This document shows positions 4,650 through 24,595 of a stretch of DNA of 64,000 bases, in pieces. Location: positions 62,001 to 126,000 of the forward strand of contig JADYZM010000019.1 of the NCBI GenBank assembly GCA_020853105.1. The letters run 5' to 3'. Numbering within the stretch: position 1 is the first letter of the stretch; each line of letters opens with the position of its first letter. The notes beneath the pieces were generated by a model. It was given only the letters and a program-made list of their open reading frames with translations. It did no database searches and was not told where the DNA came from. Source of the DNA: Flavobacteriales bacterium (GTDB lineage: Bacteria; Bacteroidota; Bacteroidia; Flavobacteriales_E; Vicingaceae). The position numbers and the translations under genes are program-made.

Positions 4650-5876
4650 TTATTGCTTAACTATTCTAAACGTTTTTAGTTGTTGGTTGGCATTCCAAAC
4701 TTTAACAAAATAGAGACCTGTCTGTAAGCTGCCATAATCAAATTCAAAAGAATTTAGGTTGGTAAATGTTTTTTTTGCAACCGACTTTCCCAACACATCA
4801 AACAATTGAAATTCTAATTGCTTTTCGTTAATTTTTGTTTTAAAAACAAATGTATTGTTAGTGTAATAACCGTTCCAGACATTTTCTAATTGAAATTCGT
4901 TTGTGCTCAAAGCTTCGTCAAAATAAAGTTTTGCAAAAACAGGAAGGTGGTCAGACATATAATACAGGGCTTCTAAAACATTGTTTGGCACAGAGTTATT
5001 GGTTGGAGAAGCTAAAATTGATTTATTAAAATGCAATCCATCGTTTCCTATTGCCTGATACGTACCGGGAATGTATTTTATTTTGTTCGTACCCTGCATT
5101 ACATCTTGCCCCATAAAAATAAAGTCAAATCTATCATCTAGTCCACCAACTGAGCCGCCATCAGAAAGAACAGCAGTACGAGTACTTTGAGTATGAATAG
5201 AAGAAAACGAACTGTTTGCCTGCCAATTCCCGGGTGAATTTATTGGGTCCTCAAGCAAAACATTACCTCCGTTTAAAATTGTGTTATAGGCAGCCTCGTT
5301 GCTAGTATAAACATTAAAATCTCCACCCAATAATATATTTGTAACGGGTTGTGTTTTTGAGTCGAGATAATTCTTAAAAGTAACTGCTTCCTGATTTCGT
5401 TGTAGTGAGTCTGCCGAAGAATTACTGGCTTTGAGATGAGCAACATAGCAATGCAAATAGGTTGTATCTTGTGTAACTGCGAGGTTTGGCGACTTATAAT
5501 AGAGCACATACTCACTAATATTTCTCAAAACTGTAGGGATTTCATGCCTGGAAATAAAACCAAATTTATCGCTATTAAAAAAAATCAGATTATCGCTATC
5601 TGGTCCGTTCACATAACTCACGTTTTGATAATGAGTAACTCCATCAACATTTAACGCATCGTTTAAAATTAACGACGCACCCACTGAAGAGGTTAATTCA
5701 GTTACCAAAAAAATATCAGGTTGAGTATATTTTATAATCGCTTTTAGAGTATCTGCTTTTGACGAATTGGAAGTTGGAAAATTTAAAATATTGTAGGAAA
5801 GCACACGAAGGGTATCTTGGGATTTGCTTTCAAAGCAAAAAAAGGTAATAAGTAATAGAATGAATGCGTGTTTCAT
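4650..5876 (-). CDS. Secreted endonuclease/exonuclease/phosphatase family protein with T9SS type A sorting domain
   Basis: Secreted EEP-superfamily enzyme (408 residues). Residues 1-19 form a signal peptide (MKHAFILLLITFFCFESKSQ). The catalytic domain spans about 22-320, with LRVLSYNIL at the start (metal-site Asn), LVTEL, LGGDFNV and the C-terminal SDHLPVFA containing the catalytic His-Asp pair. A T9SS type A sorting domain occupies about 335-408 (LQTGLYFVKVWNANQQLKTF). The combination predicts export across the outer membrane by the type IX system. The enzyme could cut DNA or RNA or act as a phosphodiesterase; sequence alone does not decide. A second EEP gene lies 13 nt upstream on the same strand, pointing to an operon. 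Confidence 0.88.
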   Translation of the reverse strand: MKHAFILLLITFFCFESKSQDTLRVLSYNILNFPTSNSSKADTLKAIIKYTQPDIFLVTELTSSVGASLILNDALNVDGVTHYQNVSYVNGPDSDNLIFFNSDKFGFISRHEIPTVLRNISEYVLYYKSPNLAVTQDTTYLHCYVAHLKASNSSADSLQRNQEAVTFKNYLDSKTQPVTNILLGGDFNVYTSNEAAYNTILNGGNVLLEDPINSPGNWQANSSFSSIHTQSTRTAVLSDGGSVGGLDDRFDFIFMGQDVMQGTNKIKYIPGTYQAIGNDGLHFNKSILASPTNNSVPNNVLEALYYMSDHLPVFAKLYFDEALSTNEFQLENVWNGYYTNNTFVFKTKINEKQLEFQLFDVLGKSVAKKTFTNLNSFEFDYGSLQTGLYFVKVWNANQQLKTFRIVKQ

Positions 5877-5889
5877 AGTATGAAGTATG

Positions 5890-6957
5890 TTATTTTTCTT
5901 TGATTAAAAACAAATAAACAGGAAAGTGATCACTGAATCCGGCTGTATAGGCTCCTCCGGCATGTGTTCTTAATGGATAACCGGCATATTGACACGACTG
6001 TTGTTTTAAATAATTCTTATTGAACACTTTGGCATTATGAAACTTGTATGACGAATAAGATTCTGAAACCAAAGCAGGGGAAAGAATTAACTGGTCGAAT
6101 AAATTCCATGTATCGCGATAAGCCAAAGTACCTATTCCTTTTTTATATAGAAATTCCATCGGGTTATATAACAATCCGTCTTTTGCTAGTTCTTTTTTTT
6201 CAACTGTTTTGAGATGATGTTTTACACTTGTATTTATAGGGTCGTCGTTTAAATCCCCCATGTAAATAATTTTTGCATTTTTATCATTCAAAAGCAAAGA
6301 ATCAATTATCATTCGTCCTAAATCAGCAGCAGCAATACGTTTTGGGGCACTTTTTTTCTCTCCACCGCCTCTAGAAGGCCAATGCGAAACAATAATATGA
6401 ACAAGCTCTCCATTCAAATATCCATTTACCAATAGTTGGTCTCTGGTATGAAGATTTGAATCGCTTTCCATCTTTAACGTGTAAGATTTACTTGAGGCGA
6501 CTTTGAAATAGTTTGGATTATATATCAATCCTACATCAACCCCCCTCCTGTCAGGAGATTCATAATGAACTATTTGATAATTTCTAGACTTTAACTTTTC
6601 TGTATTCACCAAATCTTGAATTACATTTTTATTTTCAATTTCAGATATACCAAGTATTGCCAATCCATCAGGAGTTACTTCTGTTGCCATTTCAGAAATT
6701 ACACGAGATAAATTTTCAAGTTTGTGAAAATATTTTTCAGTGTCCCACTTTTTATCCCCGTTTGGCGTATAATCAACTTGTAATACTTTATTGGTATCTG
6801 CGTCAAAAATGGTATCGTGTAAATTTTCTAAATTGTAGAAGCCGACGGCTGCAACATGATATTGTTTAGTTGAATCAACTTGAGAATAAAGAAAGGTGCC
6901 GCCAAATGCAAAACAAACTATAAATAATAAGTATTTTTTTAAACCAACCATAACCAT
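5890..6957 (-). CDS. Exported endonuclease/exonuclease/phosphatase family protein
   Basis: Second EEP-superfamily enzyme, 355 residues, with a signal peptide (hydrophobic segment then FLYSQVD) and no T9SS domain. Motifs: FYNLENLHDTIFDADT near 39-54, characteristic of the bacteroidotal EEP subgroup; ILGISEIENK (metal-binding Glu); VSHWPSRGGGE (active-site segment); YMGDLNDDP; and FSDHFPVYLF at the C-terminus. It is likely periplasmic or released. ATGs at 6957 and 6951 are both possible; neither has a clear ribosome site. It is divergent from the TonB receptor across 222 nt and upstream of the T9SS EEP gene, so both flanks suggest extracellular nucleic-acid degradation. Confidence 0.87.
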   Translation of the reverse strand: MVMVGLKKYLLFIVCFAFGGTFLYSQVDSTKQYHVAAVGFYNLENLHDTIFDADTNKVLQVDYTPNGDKKWDTEKYFHKLENLSRVISEMATEVTPDGLAILGISEIENKNVIQDLVNTEKLKSRNYQIVHYESPDRRGVDVGLIYNPNYFKVASSKSYTLKMESDSNLHTRDQLLVNGYLNGELVHIIVSHWPSRGGGEKKSAPKRIAAADLGRMIIDSLLLNDKNAKIIYMGDLNDDPINTSVKHHLKTVEKKELAKDGLLYNPMEFLYKKGIGTLAYRDTWNLFDQLILSPALVSESYSSYKFHNAKVFNKNYLKQQSCQYAGYPLRTHAGGAYTAGFSDHFPVYLFLIKEK

Positions 6958-7179
6958 CTATTTTTAAACAAAACTAAACAAAATCGAATATGTATCTTTT
7001 TTTTAACTAAATTGTTAAAATGAGTTATAAAAATTTTCAACAATCCTATCGAGTCCTATTTTTTCTAATTTTTTTACTTTATTTTTGAAAACAGAATCAC
7101 ACACAAAAAGTGAGCACCCTATGAAGCGTCCAAAGTAAGTCTTCTAACCGCTTGATGTTTTTCAAAATTGAATTTATAA

Positions 7180-9702
7180 ATGAGAAATTTTAAGTTAATA
7201 CTTGTCGCTTTTGGGTTATTATCATGTATTGAAGTACAATCACAAAACGACACATTAATTTCATCTGATGATACACTAACCAGATTTGTGCCACAATTTA
7301 GCACAACTATTGAACAATTAGACGACGAAGCTGAAAACCAAGATGTTTCCGGATTATTACAATCATCAAGAGATGTTTATACTTCAATTGCAGGTTTTAA
7401 TTTTGGTGCTGTACGGTTTAGAATCAGAGGATATGATGCTGAAAATTTTACAGCAATGATGAATGGTGTTCCATTGAACGACCAGGAAACGGGTAGAGCA
7501 ATATGGGCATATTGGGGTGGGTTAAACGACATTACTCGTTACCAAGAATCAAGAATAGGAATAACTTCATCTCAATTGAATTTTGGTGGTATCGGTGGAT
7601 ATTCCAATATTATTGCCAGAGCATCAGCACAGCGAAAAGGAAATCGAGTTTCGTATGCTTTTGCTAACCAAACATACGACCATAGGTTAATGGTTACAAC
7701 TTCTACCGGATTGATGAAAAATAATCTTGCAGTTACATTTTCCGGCTCACTCCGATATGCTGATGAAGGCTACGTAGAAGGGACTTTTTTTAGAGGAGCA
7801 AGTTACTTTCTTTCGGTTGAAAAAAAATTCAATGAAAAACACAGCTTAGGCTTTGTAGGTTTTGGTTCTCCAACTGTTTCTGGTGGTCAAAGTATTTCTG
7901 TTCGAGAAGCTTATTACCTTACTGGAAATAACCAATACAATTCTTATTGGGGCTATCAAAATGGAGAAAAAAGAAACAGCCGTGTACGCAACACTCACAA
8001 ACCAATGATGATGTTGAACCATTATTTCAAAATAAATTCAACTACAAACCTCAACACCTCATTGTTTTATACCTTTGGAAAAGGCGGACAAACTCGTTTA
8101 AATTGGTATGATGCTGCTGACCCTCGTCCGGATTATTATAGAAATCTTCCCAGCTATTATTATAACCCGGCTGATATAGCAACCTACGAACTTTATTCAC
8201 AACTCTGGCAAACAGATGTAAATACACAACAATTGAATTTTGACCAGATGTATTTTGCTAACAGTAAGAATTTACACAGTGTTCTTGATGCGAATGGAAT
8301 AAAAGGCAATACAGTAACCGGAAACCGAGCAAAATATATTATTGAAGAATATAGGTCTGACGTCCAGCAATATGGCTTTAATACAACTTTTAATCATCAA
8401 CTAAACGACTACTACACACTTTCAGGAGGAATCTACGGTAGTTTTTATAAAAGCATGAATTTTAAAGTACTTGACGACTTGTTGGGAGCCGACTATTGGG
8501 TAGATGTTGACCGTTTCGCTGAAAGAGATTTTGCAGATGAATCTGCAGCCCAAACCAATCTTGAAATTCCAAATCACATCATTAAAAAAGGAGACAAATT
8601 CGGGTATGATTATGATATTAATGTTCAAAATTTGAATTCGTTCGGGCAGATTGAAGCAAAGTCAGAAAAAATTGACTGGTATGCCGGATTGAACTTTTCA
8701 TCAACTGTTTTTTGGCGAACCGGTAATGTTCAAAATGGTCTTTTCCCCGAATCTTCTAAAGGAGATTCAGACAAAGAATCATTTATCAACTTTGGGGTTA
8801 AAGGTGGAGCAACTTATAAAATTACAGGTCGTCATTTGATTGGTGTTAATGCAACTTACTTTACTGCTGCGCCATCATCAAGAGATGCATTTGTTTCGCC
8901 TAGAACTCGTAATCAAATTGTTGATAATCTCAAAAGCGAAACTACAACTTCAGGAGATGTGAATTACATGATTCGATACCCAAAATTTAAAATGCGATTG
9001 ACTGGATTTTATACTTCAGTGAAAGATAAAACTTGGTCGAGGAGCTTTTTTCACGATGAATATAACACCTATGTTAATTATATGATGACGGGGGTTAATC
9101 AACTTTTTATGGGCACAGAATTGGGACTTGAATTCAATATAAGTCCAACAATAGAAGTAAGCACTGCATTTACTATGGGAAACTACACTTATGTTTCTCG
9201 ACCAAAAGTTACAATTTCTCAAGACAATTCCATAAAATTATTAGCTGAAAACAAATTGGTTTATTTAGAAAATTATAAAATTGGCGGCATGCCGGAAACA
9301 GCAGCTTCTATTGGTGCAAAATACAATGCTCCAAAATTTTGGTTTGCCGGTGCAAATTTTAATTTCTTTATGGATACTTATATTGAGATTAATCCAGACC
9401 GAAGAACCGAAGAAGCTCTTCAAGGTTTTGTTTCCACCGACCCTCAAGTAACAAATCTTTTGTATCAACAACGACTTGATGACAGTTACACGCTTAATAT
9501 TTTTGGTGGAAAATCATGGAAAATCAAAGATTACTTTTTACGAATTAATGTAAACGTTAATAATATTTTGGATACTAAGGATTTTGCAACAGGAGGCTTT
9601 GAACAATTGAGATACGACAAACAAAACATAAATAAATTTCCACCAAAACTAAGCTATATGTATGGCAGAACATATTTTGCCATGATTAGCTTTACTTTTT
9701 AA
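7180..9702 (+). CDS. TonB-dependent outer-membrane receptor
   Basis: 840-residue outer-membrane receptor with an N-terminal signal peptide (LILVAFGLLSCIEVQSQ). A plug domain covers about 45-160 (VRFRIRGYDAENFTAMMNGV, then NFGGIGGYSNII). The rest is a large beta-barrel rich in aromatic strands, ending in YFAMISFTF with the terminal Phe needed for outer-membrane assembly. The carboxypeptidase-like N-terminal domain common in SusC-type receptors is not visible. Such receptors import substrates too large for porins, powered by TonB. It heads an operon with two DUF5689-like lipoproteins and a secreted OB-fold protein, and is divergent from two EEP nucleases, so the cargo may be nucleic-acid fragments; that is inference. 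Confidence 0.92.
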   Translation: MRNFKLILVAFGLLSCIEVQSQNDTLISSDDTLTRFVPQFSTTIEQLDDEAENQDVSGLLQSSRDVYTSIAGFNFGAVRFRIRGYDAENFTAMMNGVPLNDQETGRAIWAYWGGLNDITRYQESRIGITSSQLNFGGIGGYSNIIARASAQRKGNRVSYAFANQTYDHRLMVTTSTGLMKNNLAVTFSGSLRYADEGYVEGTFFRGASYFLSVEKKFNEKHSLGFVGFGSPTVSGGQSISVREAYYLTGNNQYNSYWGYQNGEKRNSRVRNTHKPMMMLNHYFKINSTTNLNTSLFYTFGKGGQTRLNWYDAADPRPDYYRNLPSYYYNPADIATYELYSQLWQTDVNTQQLNFDQMYFANSKNLHSVLDANGIKGNTVTGNRAKYIIEEYRSDVQQYGFNTTFNHQLNDYYTLSGGIYGSFYKSMNFKVLDDLLGADYWVDVDRFAERDFADESAAQTNLEIPNHIIKKGDKFGYDYDINVQNLNSFGQIEAKSEKIDWYAGLNFSSTVFWRTGNVQNGLFPESSKGDSDKESFINFGVKGGATYKITGRHLIGVNATYFTAAPSSRDAFVSPRTRNQIVDNLKSETTTSGDVNYMIRYPKFKMRLTGFYTSVKDKTWSRSFFHDEYNTYVNYMMTGVNQLFMGTELGLEFNISPTIEVSTAFTMGNYTYVSRPKVTISQDNSIKLLAENKLVYLENYKIGGMPETAASIGAKYNAPKFWFAGANFNFFMDTYIEINPDRRTEEALQGFVSTDPQVTNLLYQQRLDDSYTLNIFGGKSWKIKDYFLRINVNVNNILDTKDFATGGFEQLRYDKQNINKFPPKLSYMYGRTYFAMISFTF

Positions 9703-9719
9703 AACGAAACAGACTGATT

Positions 9720-10970
9720 ATGAAAATGACAAAAAATAATATCTTTCTACCATTTGCCGTGGGTTTGTTGATTTTTTCCGGTTGCCTGAAAGAATATGAC
9801 AGTCCACCGGTAGCAGAATTACCGCAAGGAAATATTGTTACTATAGATTCCCTAAGAAAAATATATACTGCATTTGACACCACCTTCACTTCTGATTTAT
9901 CAATTTTTGGTACTGTTACAGCTGATGAAGTAAGTGGTAATTTATATAAAACACTCTATATTCAAGATGCAACAAATGCCATACAACTCAGCATGACAGC
10001 TTCAGCAGATAGATTATTCTTTGAAGGAGATGAGGTTCGAGTAGCACTAAAAGGATTGACCCTAAGCAGACAAAACAATATGATTAAACTCACGAATGTT
10101 AATCCTGAAAAAAACATAATTAAACAAAGAGTAGGAGAAAAAATTACCCCCAAAGTGGTTACTATCCAAAATTTGAATATTAATGGAATTTATTCACCCT
10201 ATCAAGGTCAACTGGTACAACTCAATCATGTTGAATTTATCTGTAACGACATTTGGAGCACTTATGCAGACCCTATTGCCCAATACGACCAAAACAGAAC
10301 GTTGAGTGATACATTGGGAAATACAATTATTGTTCGCTCAAGCGGTTATTCCAGTTTTGCAGGAACAACAGTTGCCGGAGGAAAAGGGAGTGTTACAGCT
10401 ATTGTGTCTCAATACAACAATACTGTTCAGTTGACACTCAGAAAATTAGACGACGTTCAGTTGAATGGTTCTAGAAAAGTTATTTGTCCGATTTATATGA
10501 AAAATTTTGAAGACCAAAGCATCACTTCGGGAGGGTGGACAACCAAAAATATTGTAGGAAATATTAACTGGAGTATTGCAAATATAGGTTCTAACAATAC
10601 TTATTACGCTATGATTTCTAATTATAGTGGAAGCAATACCGCTTGTGAAACTTGGCTTGTTTCGCCTGCTTTTGATTTGACAAATGTTGCTAATCCCATT
10701 TTATACTTCCAGTCGGCATACAAATATTCCGGTGATCCATTAAAATTATATGTTACAACCAACTATACAGGAGATGTTACAACTACAACATGGACAGATA
10801 TTACATCATCTGCAATATGGTCAGCAGGAAGCTTTGTTTGGTCAAATTCAGGTAATATTAACTTGTCGGCATACAAACAAGCCGGCGTTCGTTTTGCATT
10901 CAAATATACCGGTACAAATTCTAACGGAAGTACATGGGAGATTGATGATTTTACAATAAACGACTTATAA
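9720..10970 (+). CDS. DUF5689-like / choice-of-anchor J lipoprotein, first copy
   Basis: 416-residue lipoprotein. The signal ends in a lipobox LIFSGC with Cys22. After it, residues about 35-245 resemble DUF5689, an OB-fold-like domain (ISIFGTVTADEVSGNLYKTL-type pattern here as SIFGTVTADEVSGNLYKTLY; then GDEVRVALKGLTL and QGQLVQLNHVEF). Residues about 265-416 form a choice-of-anchor J module (MKNFEDQSITSGGW through WEIDDFTIND). It starts 17 nt after the receptor stop and is closely similar to the next protein, so they are paralogues from tandem duplication. A surface-exposed partner of the receptor that binds substrate is likely, by analogy with SusD-type lipoproteins; there is no homology to SusD. 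Confidence 0.82.
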   Translation: MKMTKNNIFLPFAVGLLIFSGCLKEYDSPPVAELPQGNIVTIDSLRKIYTAFDTTFTSDLSIFGTVTADEVSGNLYKTLYIQDATNAIQLSMTASADRLFFEGDEVRVALKGLTLSRQNNMIKLTNVNPEKNIIKQRVGEKITPKVVTIQNLNINGIYSPYQGQLVQLNHVEFICNDIWSTYADPIAQYDQNRTLSDTLGNTIIVRSSGYSSFAGTTVAGGKGSVTAIVSQYNNTVQLTLRKLDDVQLNGSRKVICPIYMKNFEDQSITSGGWTTKNIVGNINWSIANIGSNNTYYAMISNYSGSNTACETWLVSPAFDLTNVANPILYFQSAYKYSGDPLKLYVTTNYTGDVTTTTWTDITSSAIWSAGSFVWSNSGNINLSAYKQAGVRFAFKYTGTNSNGSTWEIDDFTINDL

Positions 10971-10980
10971 AATTTTGAAA

Positions 10981-12192
10981 ATGAAAAATTTTAAAAGATT
11001 ACTATATCTATTAGCATTAACAGTAACAATCTGTGGTTGCACCAAAGAATATGATGCTCCTACGGTAAAATCTGTACCCGTTGGAAATGTATTAACCATT
11101 GCTGAAGTCAGAGCCTTACACGTTCCTGGTACAGAAACCCACATTACTCAAGATATTTCAGTTTTTGGTGTAGTTACTGCTGATGAAACAACAGGAAACA
11201 TTTACAAAGAAGCCTATATTCAAGATGAAACAGGAGCTTTGTATCTTAGATTTACAACATCAAGCGGAGTTTACATTGGAGATTCCATACGTGTTTACCT
11301 AAAAGGAACAAAAATACTCCGCTATAACCAAATGCTACAAGTTGATTCTGTTCATCCGGACAACAACATAGTTAAAGTTAAAACTCAACAGTACAGAACC
11401 CCAGAACTGGTAACAATCAGTGCTCTTAATGCAAACAAAGAATTTTATCAAGGAAAATTGGTTCAAATTGATGGTGTTTTCTTTATAGATGCAGGACAAT
11501 CACTCACTTATGCCGACGGAGTGAACAAAGTTTCTATCAGTAGAAAAATTCAAGATGTAAGCACCAACCAAATTGATGTAAGAACAAGCGGTTATGCAAA
11601 CTTTGCTAACGATACATTGCCAGATGGAGGTGGAACTTTTATTGGTATTGCAGGTCAATTTAACTCAACCATGCAACTTATCATCAGAAACCCGAATGAA
11701 CTGCAATTAAATGGCGAAAAACCTTCCATCAAAAACTTTCAAGACCAAAGCTTAACTTCGGGTGGATGGAGCGTTGAAAATGTATCGGGTACAATCAATT
11801 GGGTTACCAGCGATTTAGGCTCTACAGGAAATTTCTACGCAAAAGTTGACAACACAAATGCAAAACTTGTTGGTGAAACCTGGTTTGTTTCTCCTGCTCT
11901 AGATTTTACGAATTCAAATTCACCCTATGCAACCTTTAGAAGTGCAACATTTGCTGGTAACTCTGCTTTACAGGTTTACATTTTAACAAACTATTCCGGA
12001 GGAAATCCTAATAGCGGAACTTTAACTGAAGTTTTTCCAACACTTTCGTCGGGTAGTTGGACTTGGACTAGTTCAGGAAATATAGATTTATCGAGCTACA
12101 AACAATCTAATGTGCGAATTGCATTCAAATACACCGGCTATTCCAGTTCATGGAATACTTGGGAACTTGATGATATAATAATAATTCCATAA
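10981..12192 (+). CDS. DUF5689-like / choice-of-anchor J lipoprotein, second copy
   Basis: 403-residue paralogue of the preceding lipoprotein. The ATG at 10981 gives MKNFKRLLYLLALTVTICGC with lipidation at Cys20; a TTG six bases upstream is unnecessary. It shares with its neighbour the KEYDAPTVKSVPVGN segment, DISVFGVVTADETTGNIYKE, YQGKLVQIDGVFF, then IKNFQDQSLTSGGWSVENVS and the closing WNTWELDDIIIIP. Domain order is the same: OB-fold-like DUF5689 followed by choice-of-anchor J. The gap after the previous stop is 10 nt. The two copies differ throughout, so the duplication is not recent and the pair may bind different ligands. Confidence 0.82.
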   Translation: MKNFKRLLYLLALTVTICGCTKEYDAPTVKSVPVGNVLTIAEVRALHVPGTETHITQDISVFGVVTADETTGNIYKEAYIQDETGALYLRFTTSSGVYIGDSIRVYLKGTKILRYNQMLQVDSVHPDNNIVKVKTQQYRTPELVTISALNANKEFYQGKLVQIDGVFFIDAGQSLTYADGVNKVSISRKIQDVSTNQIDVRTSGYANFANDTLPDGGGTFIGIAGQFNSTMQLIIRNPNELQLNGEKPSIKNFQDQSLTSGGWSVENVSGTINWVTSDLGSTGNFYAKVDNTNAKLVGETWFVSPALDFTNSNSPYATFRSATFAGNSALQVYILTNYSGGNPNSGTLTEVFPTLSSGSWTWTSSGNIDLSSYKQSNVRIAFKYTGYSSSWNTWELDDIIIIP

Positions 12193-12219
12193 TTTTAATA
12201 TTCACTTAAATTTTAAATC

Positions 12220-13575
12220 ATGAAAAAAACCTACTATTTAATTTTTGGATTACTCTTTACAGGAGCATTAAATGCTCAAGTAATTTTTCAAACAAATCTA
12301 AGCTCATGGTCAAATGGTAAACCAACCGATTTTTGGGGCTCAGCAACAAACCTTGCAGCATCTAACATTACTGAAGTTCCTGCCGTTATGTATGGCACAA
12401 GTGCTGCTGCAGTGAAAAACACAGGATTAGGACACAAACGCTTGACAACTCAAACACTAAACGTAGATACCGGTGCCACTTATGAAATAAAAATGTATGT
12501 AAAAGCAATGCAAGGAATGTTAAGAACAAATTACTACAATGTTACAAATGTAGCTTATGGTTCATATAACAGTTATTTTGATTTATCTGTTGAGTCTGCA
12601 GGTCAATTGGTTGAACTTTCACAAATAGTAACTGTATCTTCAACAACAGATAGTGCACAGTTTATTTTATCGTTCCATAGTACAGACAGCTTAGATAAAT
12701 TGGTAATTGATTCAGTTGTTATTTCAAAAACAACACCTCCAGTAGTAACACCATATACAATTAATCAAATTCAATATACAACAACACCACCCTATGATTC
12801 ACCTCACAATGGAGAGTTGGTTCAAACAACCGGTATAGTAACTGCAGCTCATTTTAATGGTTATTTTATTCAAGACGGAGTTGGTGCATTTAACGGAATT
12901 TTCGTTTATGATAACGTAAATACTCCTGTAATTGGAGATAATGTAACAGTAACAGGTTTGGTTGAAGAATTCTTTGGTTATACAGAAATTAAAAATGTAA
13001 CCGTATTCACAACCAATTCAACCGGAAATACCCTTCCGGCAGTAACTAATATTTCGACTCAAGCAGTATTTAATGAAGATTATGAAGGTGTATTGGTTAA
13101 AGTTAGCAATGCTACATGTACTGTTGATACAACTACAAATGGATTTGGAGAATGGACAATTAACGACGGAACCGGCGAGGTTCGAGTTGATAACAAAATG
13201 TATAATTATAACGGGATAGTATCCACTGCATATAATGTAACAGCAGTTGTTGATTATTCTGCAACAGTTATAAAAATTTTACAACCCAGATATTTAGCTG
13301 ATATTGAAATTGCAACTTCAGTAGAAGAAATCAACGAATCTAAGCTCGTTGCATACCCAAATCCTGTTCAAAATCAATTCACCATTGAAACAGCTGTTTC
13401 TAATTTTACTGTTGATTTGTATGATATAACCGGAAAAAACATAAACCAATACTCTGCAAAAGACGGAAAACTAACCATAAACACTACAAACTTAAATAAC
13501 GGAGTTTATTTCTATTCTATCTTGAACGCTGAAAACCAAGTAGTTGAAAGCAATAAATTTATTATTTCAAAATAA
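12220..13575 (+). CDS. Secreted OB-fold (YhcR-like) protein with T9SS type A sorting domain
   Basis: 451-residue exported protein: signal peptide 1-19 (ending ALNAQ); a beta-sandwich, carbohydrate-module-like region at about 22-170 (GATYEIKMYVKAM, DSVVISK); an OB-fold region at about 180-360 (YTINQIQYTTTPPYDSPHNG, GELVQTTGIVTA, GYFIQDG, IGDNVTVTGLVEEFFGYTEI); and a T9SS type A sorting domain at about 370-451 (YPNPVQNQFTIE ... NNGVYFYSILN). The OB part resembles the YhcR/ExeM-type OB-folds found beside extracellular nuclease domains, but no nuclease domain is present here. It is the last gene of the receptor operon, 27 nt after the second lipoprotein and followed by a terminator. Binding to extracellular nucleic acid is a plausible role. 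Confidence 0.8.
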   Translation: MKKTYYLIFGLLFTGALNAQVIFQTNLSSWSNGKPTDFWGSATNLAASNITEVPAVMYGTSAAAVKNTGLGHKRLTTQTLNVDTGATYEIKMYVKAMQGMLRTNYYNVTNVAYGSYNSYFDLSVESAGQLVELSQIVTVSSTTDSAQFILSFHSTDSLDKLVIDSVVISKTTPPVVTPYTINQIQYTTTPPYDSPHNGELVQTTGIVTAAHFNGYFIQDGVGAFNGIFVYDNVNTPVIGDNVTVTGLVEEFFGYTEIKNVTVFTTNSTGNTLPAVTNISTQAVFNEDYEGVLVKVSNATCTVDTTTNGFGEWTINDGTGEVRVDNKMYNYNGIVSTAYNVTAVVDYSATVIKILQPRYLADIEIATSVEEINESKLVAYPNPVQNQFTIETAVSNFTVDLYDITGKNINQYSAKDGKLTINTTNLNNGVYFYSILNAENQVVESNKFIISK

Positions 13576-24031: not shown

Positions 24032-24595
24032 ATGAAAATCAAATCCTTACTTTATATATTTTCTGTTTTACTAATTCACTGTTCTCCAAAAGAAATGAGT
24101 AAATTAATAGTTAATGATGCAGCAGGTTTTAATGGTGGGTTTGAAACCATTCAAAACAATTATCCTGTAAACTGGCAAATTTATGACGAACAAACTACAG
24201 AGAGTGGTAGTTTTACTATTTCAATTGATTCAACTCTCTTTTCTGAAGGGAAACAGTCTTTAAAATTTGATGTAAAAAACTGCGATTCAACGGGTGGTTG
24301 GCTATCTCCAGGAATTTCAAAAGAATGGCAGGTAAATCCGGGTGAAGCCTATTTGATAAGTTTTAACTACATAAATAATAATTCCTATTTTCAAGCCAGA
24401 ATTGGAGGAGTAACCCCTAAAAGTGGAAAACTAACTAATATAATAAAATCTGCTGAAAACTCTCCAGGGTGGAAAACAATTGAATATTCCTACACAATAC
24501 CTAAAGAAATGAATACTTTACGATTTGAATTGAATATTTTAAGTGCCGGTACATTTTGGGTTGATGACATTAAATTTGAAAAATTGAAACCCTAA
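24032..24595 (+). CDS. Putative lipoprotein with a carbohydrate-binding-like beta-sandwich
   Basis: 187-residue exported protein. The N-terminus MKIKSLLYIFSVLLIHCSPK ends in a lipobox-like LLIHC with Cys17. The remainder resembles a galactose-binding-like/CBM beta-sandwich: NGGFETIQNNYPVNWQIYD near the start (the GFE...W-N pattern of CBM4/9-type modules), SEGKQSLKFDV, and the closing FWVDDIKFEKL typical of these folds. No enzyme domain is attached. It stands between the efflux operator region and a small cytosolic gene, with no clear partner. Ligand unknown. Confidence 0.6.
   Translation: MKIKSLLYIFSVLLIHCSPKEMSKLIVNDAAGFNGGFETIQNNYPVNWQIYDEQTTESGSFTISIDSTLFSEGKQSLKFDVKNCDSTGGWLSPGISKEWQVNPGEAYLISFNYINNNSYFQARIGGVTPKSGKLTNIIKSAENSPGWKTIEYSYTIPKEMNTLRFELNILSAGTFWVDDIKFEKLKP

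Follow-up and report, generated by a model that had tools for sequence, protein, structure and literature searches.

The locus at positions 4650-13575 of the window, by which we mean the whole 64,000-nucleotide stretch of Flavobacteriales DNA analysed here, is probably a variant of the module through which Bacteroidota take up DNA across the outer membrane in natural transformation, as judged from sequence comparison with a genetically studied relative. Its most likely substrate is extracellular DNA, and DNA import by the module is supported by homology. Some Bacteroidota depend on an outer-membrane gateway, so far little studied, to take up free DNA for transformation, and the module would be one version of it.

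Pfam and NCBIfam searches of the window proteins supplied the domain calls, and six open reading frames were confirmed, two EEP genes on the minus strand and four genes on the plus strand:

4650..5876, minus strand: EEP-fold exported enzyme with a T9SS type A tail (PF03372, PF18962, TIGR04183)
5890..6957, minus strand: EEP3, a PF19580 exported enzyme (421 bits) with a signal peptide and without a T9SS tail
6958..7179, no strand: divergent intergenic region of 222 nt with candidate Bacteroidota -7 boxes on both strands
7180..9702, plus strand: TonB-dependent receptor (TBDR) with a Plug domain, a putative outer-membrane DNA gate
9720..10970, plus strand: lipoprotein A, DUF5689 plus choice-of-anchor J (PF18942, NF038128)
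10975..12192, plus strand: lipoprotein B, DUF5689 plus choice-of-anchor J (PF18942), a paralogue of A
12220..13575, plus strand: T9SS-secreted protein with an ExeM/NucH-like OB-fold region (partial NF033681) and a T9SS tail, without a catalytic domain

The EEP genes, separated by 13 nt, diverge across the 222-nt gap from the receptor operon, whose internal gaps are 17, 4 and 27 nt. The divergent region carries TAnnTTTG boxes on both strands, which are candidate promoters by consensus match only. The original prediction had described this layout, and all of it was confirmed: the TonB receptor, the paired DUF5689 lipoproteins, the T9SS OB protein, the two EEPs and the divergence. The coordinate 10975 is a TTG start; an ATG at 10981 yields the same lipoprotein B, correcting an earlier start call.

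The genetic evidence comes from Riemerella anatipestifer, where markerless deletion of either RA0C_RS04915, the receptor, or RA0C_RS04920, the DUF5689 gene, abolished natural transformation (<4e-10 in both mutants vs 5e-5), as did loss of comEC, dprA or recA, while the drop was only 6-128-fold for the other loci whose markerless mutants were impaired (PMC8459023). TonBA and TonBB are also required for transformation (PMC8383284), and we join these receptor and TonB requirements, from two separate reports, into one TonB-driven mechanism. For outer-membrane DNA passage in secretin-less Bacteroidota, the main genetic lead found is one transposon screen, which reported no mutant of the PF19580 neighbour and did not discuss it (PMC8459023). 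The requirement for transformation is known only for R. anatipestifer and would extend to the window module by homology; Flavobacterium johnsoniae has homologues, yet could not be transformed in the laboratory (PMC7965970, PMC8459023).

We recognised the Riemerella locus through its exact gene order, not by name. A 2,164,087-bp contig carries recA-dinB-sdhB-sdhA-sdhC-comEC-x-x-EEP3(-)/TBDR(+)-DUF5689(+), with recA, dinB and sdh assigned from N-terminal sequences, and this order matches tags 04870, 04895, 04910, 04915 and 04920 one for one. The receptor matched in this way is 65-66% identical to Chryseobacterium receptors, for which PMC8459023 gives 65.9%. The PF19580 enzyme adjoining it, by position RA0C_RS04910, is 41% identical to EEP3. 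The window receptor is an orthologue of RA0C_RS04915: the two are reciprocal best hits at E 1e-119 to 1e-120 and about 33-36% identical, and the next-best Riemerella match lies a wide margin away at E 4e-39. The CarboxypepD_reg domain described for RA0C_RS04915 is found at the receptor N-terminus in Riemerella and Chryseobacterium and is absent from the window receptor and from L036; being variable over the wider family, it was not taken as defining. Directly 3' of the window receptor, across the 17-nt gap, lies the DUF5689 plus choice-of-anchor-J/DUF5017 lipoprotein.

Across 30 divergent receptor lineages, the TBDR, DUF5689 and PF19580 were found in the neighbourhood in 30, 29 and 26, respectively, compared to 5 for the next commonest family; the arrangement is therefore beyond chance, and receptor, DUF5689 and EEP form a genuine conserved module, as had been proposed. 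The single DUF5689 miss is an ORF-overlap artefact, so that receptor and DUF5689 occur together in all lineages. The co-occurrence check suggested with the prediction held fully for DUF5689, directly after the receptor in 126/126 loci, and for most loci in the case of EEP3, divergent beside the receptor in 102 of the 123 with readable upstream sequence and in 23/29 dereplicated lineages. The 21 loci that lack an adjacent divergent EEP gene include L027, a close relative whose short contig carries other genes there, L037, a further genome from the family to which the window belongs, and a Flavobacterium subclade, at least some members of which have the gene at another site (at a distance of 57 kb in F. 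hydatis). An EEP gene next to the receptor is thus common, not obligatory, and the refuting condition set with the prediction, relatives that conserve the receptor operon without nuclease genes, receives a mixed answer. At least seven families of the class carry the module, at G+C contents of about 31 to 68%, and its core is ancient; receptor homologues had been reported solely from Flavobacteriaceae (PMC8459023). 'Absent' in 41/60 relatives in a first genome-wide receptor search at E<=1e-60 may hide diverged copies. We also considered comEC adjacency as a general marker: three Riemerella-like genomes have comEC at a distance of ~7 kb, and the marker fails in Chryseobacterium, Kaistella and the window genome.

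Lipoproteins A and B each score 155 bits for DUF5689 and are 43-44% identical in alignments. The lipobox of A (SGC) is followed by CLKEYD and that of B by CTKEYD; the surface-export signal is C-X-K-(D/E)2 (PMC5080379), which CLKEYD of A resembles. We propose that A is a surface DNA-binding lid of the receptor. Structure prediction, another suggested check, gave an AlphaFold model of A with pLDDT 89, and most Foldseek matches of the DUF5689 model fell on its C-terminal jelly-roll. The telomerase OB protein Teb1 matched at E 2e-5 with poor superposition, and for both reasons an OB fold for the DUF5689 domain may be suggested only tentatively. PDB sequence and profile searches matched just the jelly-roll part. 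The idea of two OB halves inside DUF5689 was dropped, as profile comparison gave no internal repeat. On NF052645, the M949_1556 family of lipoproteins, the window proteins score 179 and 123 bits against a curated 475 and fall outside the family, and Chryseobacterium and Kaistella members score 706-761 bits.

The secreted protein at 12220-13575 is remotely similar to DUF5689 (hhalign 71%, E 4e-5). Its predicted YhcR/ExeM-like character stood in part: it matches positions 1-131 of the 546 of NF033681 (ExeM/NucH), the N-terminal OB part, at E 4e-12, while its 45.7 bits lie far below the cut-off of 300 and exclude it from the full-length OB+EEP family. Proteins of this type were found in 4 of the 30 receptor lineages, and the protein is a lineage-specific addition.

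EEP3 belongs to Exo_endo_phos_3 by family score and by its EEP catalytic residues, N42, E106, H192, D235, N237, D343 and H344, which do not vary in 40 homologues. It is a core gene of the module and is predicted to be periplasmic. Its model (pLDDT 88) is closest to EEP nucleases and phosphodiesterases, namely the Bacteroides EEP 3mpr, Nocturnin, TDP2 and CNOT6L, and searching PDB sequences, with the single sequence and with a profile, returned no close solved relative. In the T9SS-tailed enzyme, predicted to be a secreted or surface nuclease or phosphodiesterase, N29, E60, H147, D186, N188, D309 and H310 do not vary in 10 homologues. The EEP catalytic residues are intact in both enzymes. The T9SS-tailed gene adjoins EEP3 in 9/18 of the relatives' loci fetched, all from the window's genus or nearby genera of the same family, and is a lineage-specific addition to the module. 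The EEP fold also covers sugar-phosphate and other phosphatases (4c1r is among the structural matches); for this reason the nuclease activity of these enzymes, like the role of EEP3, is presumptive.

The window genome (estimated 100% complete) encodes ComEC, DprA and a membrane-anchored ComEA-like HHH protein, and neither it nor two Riemerella-like genomes searched gave a match to a secretin (PF00263). ComEC, DprA and HHH proteins are present in many non-competent genomes, which counts against the competence reading, as do the low identity of the window receptor to that of Riemerella and its lack of CarboxypepD_reg, the F. johnsoniae result, the 21 loci without an adjacent EEP3 and the presence of phosphatases in the EEP fold. 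Collectively, the knockout phenotypes, the gene-order match, the reciprocal best-hit receptors, the TonB requirement, the conservation of DUF5689 and EEP3, and a genome with ComEC, DprA and HHH proteins and no secretin match point to transformation.

The original prediction had the locus use extracellular DNA or RNA as nutrients, and of these two extracellular DNA stands as the most likely substrate. In the nutritional reading, DNA or RNA would be captured, cleaved outside the cell by the T9SS enzyme, taken in through the receptor and degraded by EEP3 to supply P, N or C, with Riemerella transformation as a by-product; we regard this as unlikely. The pair of EEP enzymes, catalytically intact by their residues and one of them secreted, the secreted OB-fold protein and the co-conservation of EEP3 with the receptor would all suit such a use, but homologues have a single known uptake phenotype, transformation, which their mutants lose (PMC8459023) and which needs TonB genes as well (PMC8383284), and neither a nucleotidase nor a nucleoside transporter or phosphatase is a recurrent neighbour of the module. 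We consider it still less probable that the receptor serves another ligand and that the EEPs, as phosphatases or phosphodiesterases, have sugar phosphates, lipids or nucleotides for substrates, the Riemerella phenotype being an indirect nutrient or envelope defect. A Bacteroides EEP relative, Bt3783, is a mannosyl-6-phosphatase (4c1r), the jelly-roll domain resembles carbohydrate-binding modules, and M949_1556 of Riemerella, which names the DUF5689 lipoprotein family, is linked to antigenicity/LPS and virulence; against this, the loss of transformation is total, as in comEC, dprA and recA mutants, and other defective loci showed far smaller drops.

If the locus is a DNA-uptake module, the surface lipoproteins, with DUF5689 (probably OB-like) and jelly-roll domains, would bind DNA above the receptor, a lipoprotein/receptor step that is genetically essential in a homologue. 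The TonB-energised receptor would pass the DNA to the periplasm, replacing the type IV pilus secretin, and the periplasmic HHH protein, then ComEC/DprA, would carry it onward. For the PF19580 enzyme, the most likely role is that of a periplasmic nuclease which processes incoming DNA, perhaps by degrading a strand, by trimming or clearing, or by salvaging untransformed DNA. Outside the cell, loosening or cutting of DNA is probably the task of the two T9SS-secreted proteins, the OB protein and the second EEP enzyme. The PF19580 gene, not previously linked to the gateway, accompanies the receptor in most lineages and is a candidate for DNA processing. It is possible, at slightly less than an even chance, that this is a widespread secretin-independent, TonB-driven DNA import with an OB-fold lipoprotein lid and its own PF19580 periplasmic nuclease, extended in the window's lineage by T9SS-secreted DNA-handling proteins and serving both transformation and DNA foraging. 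The module could supply markers from which competence and horizontal gene transfer might be predicted.

With type IV pilus/PilQ competence the window would share ComEC and DprA fed via a periplasmic HHH protein, whereas that system is secretin-based. BtuB-BtuG and SusC-SusD likewise pair a TonB receptor with an operon-encoded, predicted surface lipoprotein, a works-like analogy, although the window lipoprotein domain is unrelated as far as tested. The predicted likeness to a polysaccharide-utilisation locus is loose, and a SusCD reading was rejected: Pfam and NCBIfam searches found no SusD family, and the receptor has no SusC/RagA assignment. ExeM/NucH and YhcR combine an OB-like region with an EEP catalytic domain, which the window has as separate secreted polypeptides, its OB protein matching ExeM/NucH in part only. 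The R. anatipestifer locus has one DUF5689 gene where the window has two, lies beside comEC, unlike the window module, encodes a diverged receptor with CarboxypepD_reg, and lacks the two added proteins, the second EEP and the T9SS-secreted OB protein; the two loci share the receptor followed by the DUF5689 lipoprotein, and the PF19580 gene divergent upstream.

Domain scans placed all six genes of the predicted scavenging locus exactly where they had been reported:

4650-5876, minus strand: EEP domain with a T9SS type A tail
5890-6957, minus strand: PF19580 EEP enzyme (421 bits) without T9SS tail
7180-9702, plus strand: TonB receptor plug
9720-10970, plus strand: DUF5689 and choice-of-anchor J protein
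10975-12192, plus strand: DUF5689 and choice-of-anchor J protein
12220-13575, plus strand: T9SS tail and the N-terminal OB part of ExeM/NucH

The plus-strand genes are separated by 17, 4 and 27 nt, the two EEP genes by 13 nt and the two groups by 222 nt, a spacing that suggests two divergent operons. The second DUF5689 lipoprotein is listed from a TTG at 10975; the ATG at 10981 is the more natural start. Elsewhere, after a TetR-type regulator/efflux operon of the opposite strand, 24032-24595 encodes a small exported protein that matches the carbohydrate-binding family CBM_4_9.

We found no published mention of DUF5689 other than in a study that screened transposon mutants of Riemerella anatipestifer for natural transformation (PMC8459023). 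There, markerless deletion of RA0C_RS04915 (receptor) or RA0C_RS04920 (DUF5689 and DUF5017) abolished transformation, the same loss being observed for insertion mutants of comEC, dprA, comF and recA (PMC8459023). In a Weeksellaceae genus with 2.0-2.6 Mb genomes, comEC of some members lies ~7 kb from the DUF5689 gene, and a single contig of 2,164,087 bp reads recA, dinB-like, sdhB, sdhA, sdhC, comEC, two genes, PF19580 (minus strand), receptor (plus) and DUF5689 (plus). This order fits the tags RS04870 (recA), RS04895 (comEC), RS04915 and RS04920, numbered at steps of five; RS04910 is therefore the PF19580 enzyme. Gene order and percent identities were the basis for assigning the contig to Riemerella: its receptor shares 65-66% identity with those of Chryseobacterium, for which the published figure is 65.9% (Table 4 of PMC8459023). 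Searched in either direction, the window and contig receptors are each other's best hit (E ~1e-120, against 4e-39 for the next receptor of Riemerella); the PF19580 enzymes are 41% and the DUF5689 proteins 26-29% identical. Downstream of the DNA-uptake module, the Riemerella-like genomes carry genes that, judged from sequence only, are CRISPR-Cas-like (L178:17991-19001, L180:18211-19001): a Cas2-like ORF, a Cas1-like ORF and a Cas9-like N-terminus MKIILGLDLGTNSIGWALV.

Relatives of the window keep PF19580, receptor and DUF5689 amid differing flanking genes. A receptor-profile scan of named genomes (Chryseobacterium, Kaistella, Epilithonimonas, Flavobacterium, Polaribacter, Formosa and others) gave 80 loci, all with DUF5689 downstream. 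In the proposed check of co-occurrence of receptor, DUF5689 and EEP genes across Bacteroidota, DUF5689 lay directly after the receptor in 126/126 loci, and PF19580 was divergent in 102 of the 123 loci with readable upstream sequence and in the majority of loci in 23 of 29 lineages dereplicated at 55% receptor identity. Among 30 representative loci, the receptor family was present in 30, DUF5689 in 29 (the miss, L035, reflects ORF overlap) and PF19580 anywhere in the neighbourhood in 26, the next commonest neighbour reaching 5; many loci were picked via one or other module gene, PF19580 at no time being a selection criterion. Families with the module include f1 (the window's), f3, f9, f22 (Weeksellaceae, assigned from named relatives), f26, f27 and f28. 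A Flavobacterium subclade has receptor and DUF5689 but no adjacent PF19580 (L130, L141, L147, L150, L153, L156, L158, L162, L166, L168); in F. hydatis the gene lies 57 kb from the module instead. F. johnsoniae, a species beyond those covered here, is reported to be non-transformable in the laboratory (PMC7965970, PMC8459023). A second type of receptor occurs in some Chryseobacterium and Kaistella species (L106-L111). It is 44-46% identical, likewise has a divergent PF19580 gene, and is paired with a lipoprotein of ~690-720 aa that the DUF5689 lipoprotein family matches twice. Several Flavobacteriaceae carry a shorter PF19580 paralogue (~312-323 aa, 320-365 bits) a few kb from the module (L077, L080, L081, L086, L119, L122, L139, L143, L146, L161).

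Residues N42, E106, H192, D235, N237, D343 and H344 of the PF19580 enzyme are unchanged across 40 homologues, as are N29, E60, H147, D186, N188, D309 and H310 of the T9SS enzyme across 10. These residues, which define the chemistry of the EEP/DNase I fold, are intact in both enzymes. The nearest folds to the PF19580 model (pLDDT 88) are a Bacteroides EEP protein, Nocturnin, TDP2 and CNOT6L. Since enzymes for other phosphoesters, such as Bt3783, are also among the matches, we regard the predicted nuclease activity as only likely.

Fold search with a confident DUF5689 lipoprotein model (pLDDT 89) matched mostly the jelly-roll half; hhalign relates DUF5689 remotely to the secreted OB protein (71%, E 4e-5), which suggests that the DUF5689 domain may be OB-like. 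Both lipoproteins continue from the lipobox as CLKEYD or CTKEYD, near the surface-export signal C-X-K-(D/E)2 (PMC5080379). The receptor's DUF5689 partner in Chryseobacterium and Kaistella belongs to NCBIfam M949_1556, named for an R. anatipestifer gene (706-761 bits); the window proteins score 179 and 123 bits, under its cut-off.

The window genome, estimated 100% complete, encodes ComEC and DprA, as well as a membrane-anchored protein of 306 aa that contains two or more HHH motifs and resembles RA0C_RS02645, the essential HHH protein of R. anatipestifer. At the E-value limits used, no secretin was found in this genome or in the two Riemerella-like genomes searched, and the usual outer-membrane DNA gate is therefore missing from them. 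A secretin domain does occur in one congener (G002:C106:11025-11525, E 2e-39), whereas two other genomes of the genus, like the window genome, have none. Full transformation of R. anatipestifer depends on TonBA and TonBB, and iron does not account for the effect of TonBA; the authors left this requirement unlinked to the receptor (PMC8383284).

The predicted import of extracellular nucleic acid is supported for DNA by homology: in R. anatipestifer, receptor and DUF5689 homologues are essential for transformation (PMC8459023) and TonB mutants transform less (PMC8383284). We propose that the DUF5689 lipoprotein would bind DNA at the cell surface and the receptor would act as its gate; the PF19580 enzyme, exported without a T9SS tail, may work on incoming DNA in the periplasm, after which the HHH protein and ComEC would take over. 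It is possible that one locus serves both transformation and nutrition.

We would class the locus as a variant of the Riemerella-type competence module; it is neither a PUL nor an ExeM nuclease. What is new is that the PF19580 partner is widely conserved beside the receptor, that the module extends past Flavobacteriaceae/Weeksellaceae, and that the window's lineage has added a secreted extension, namely the T9SS OB protein and T9SS EEP enzyme, which together resemble a split version of an ExeM-type nuclease.
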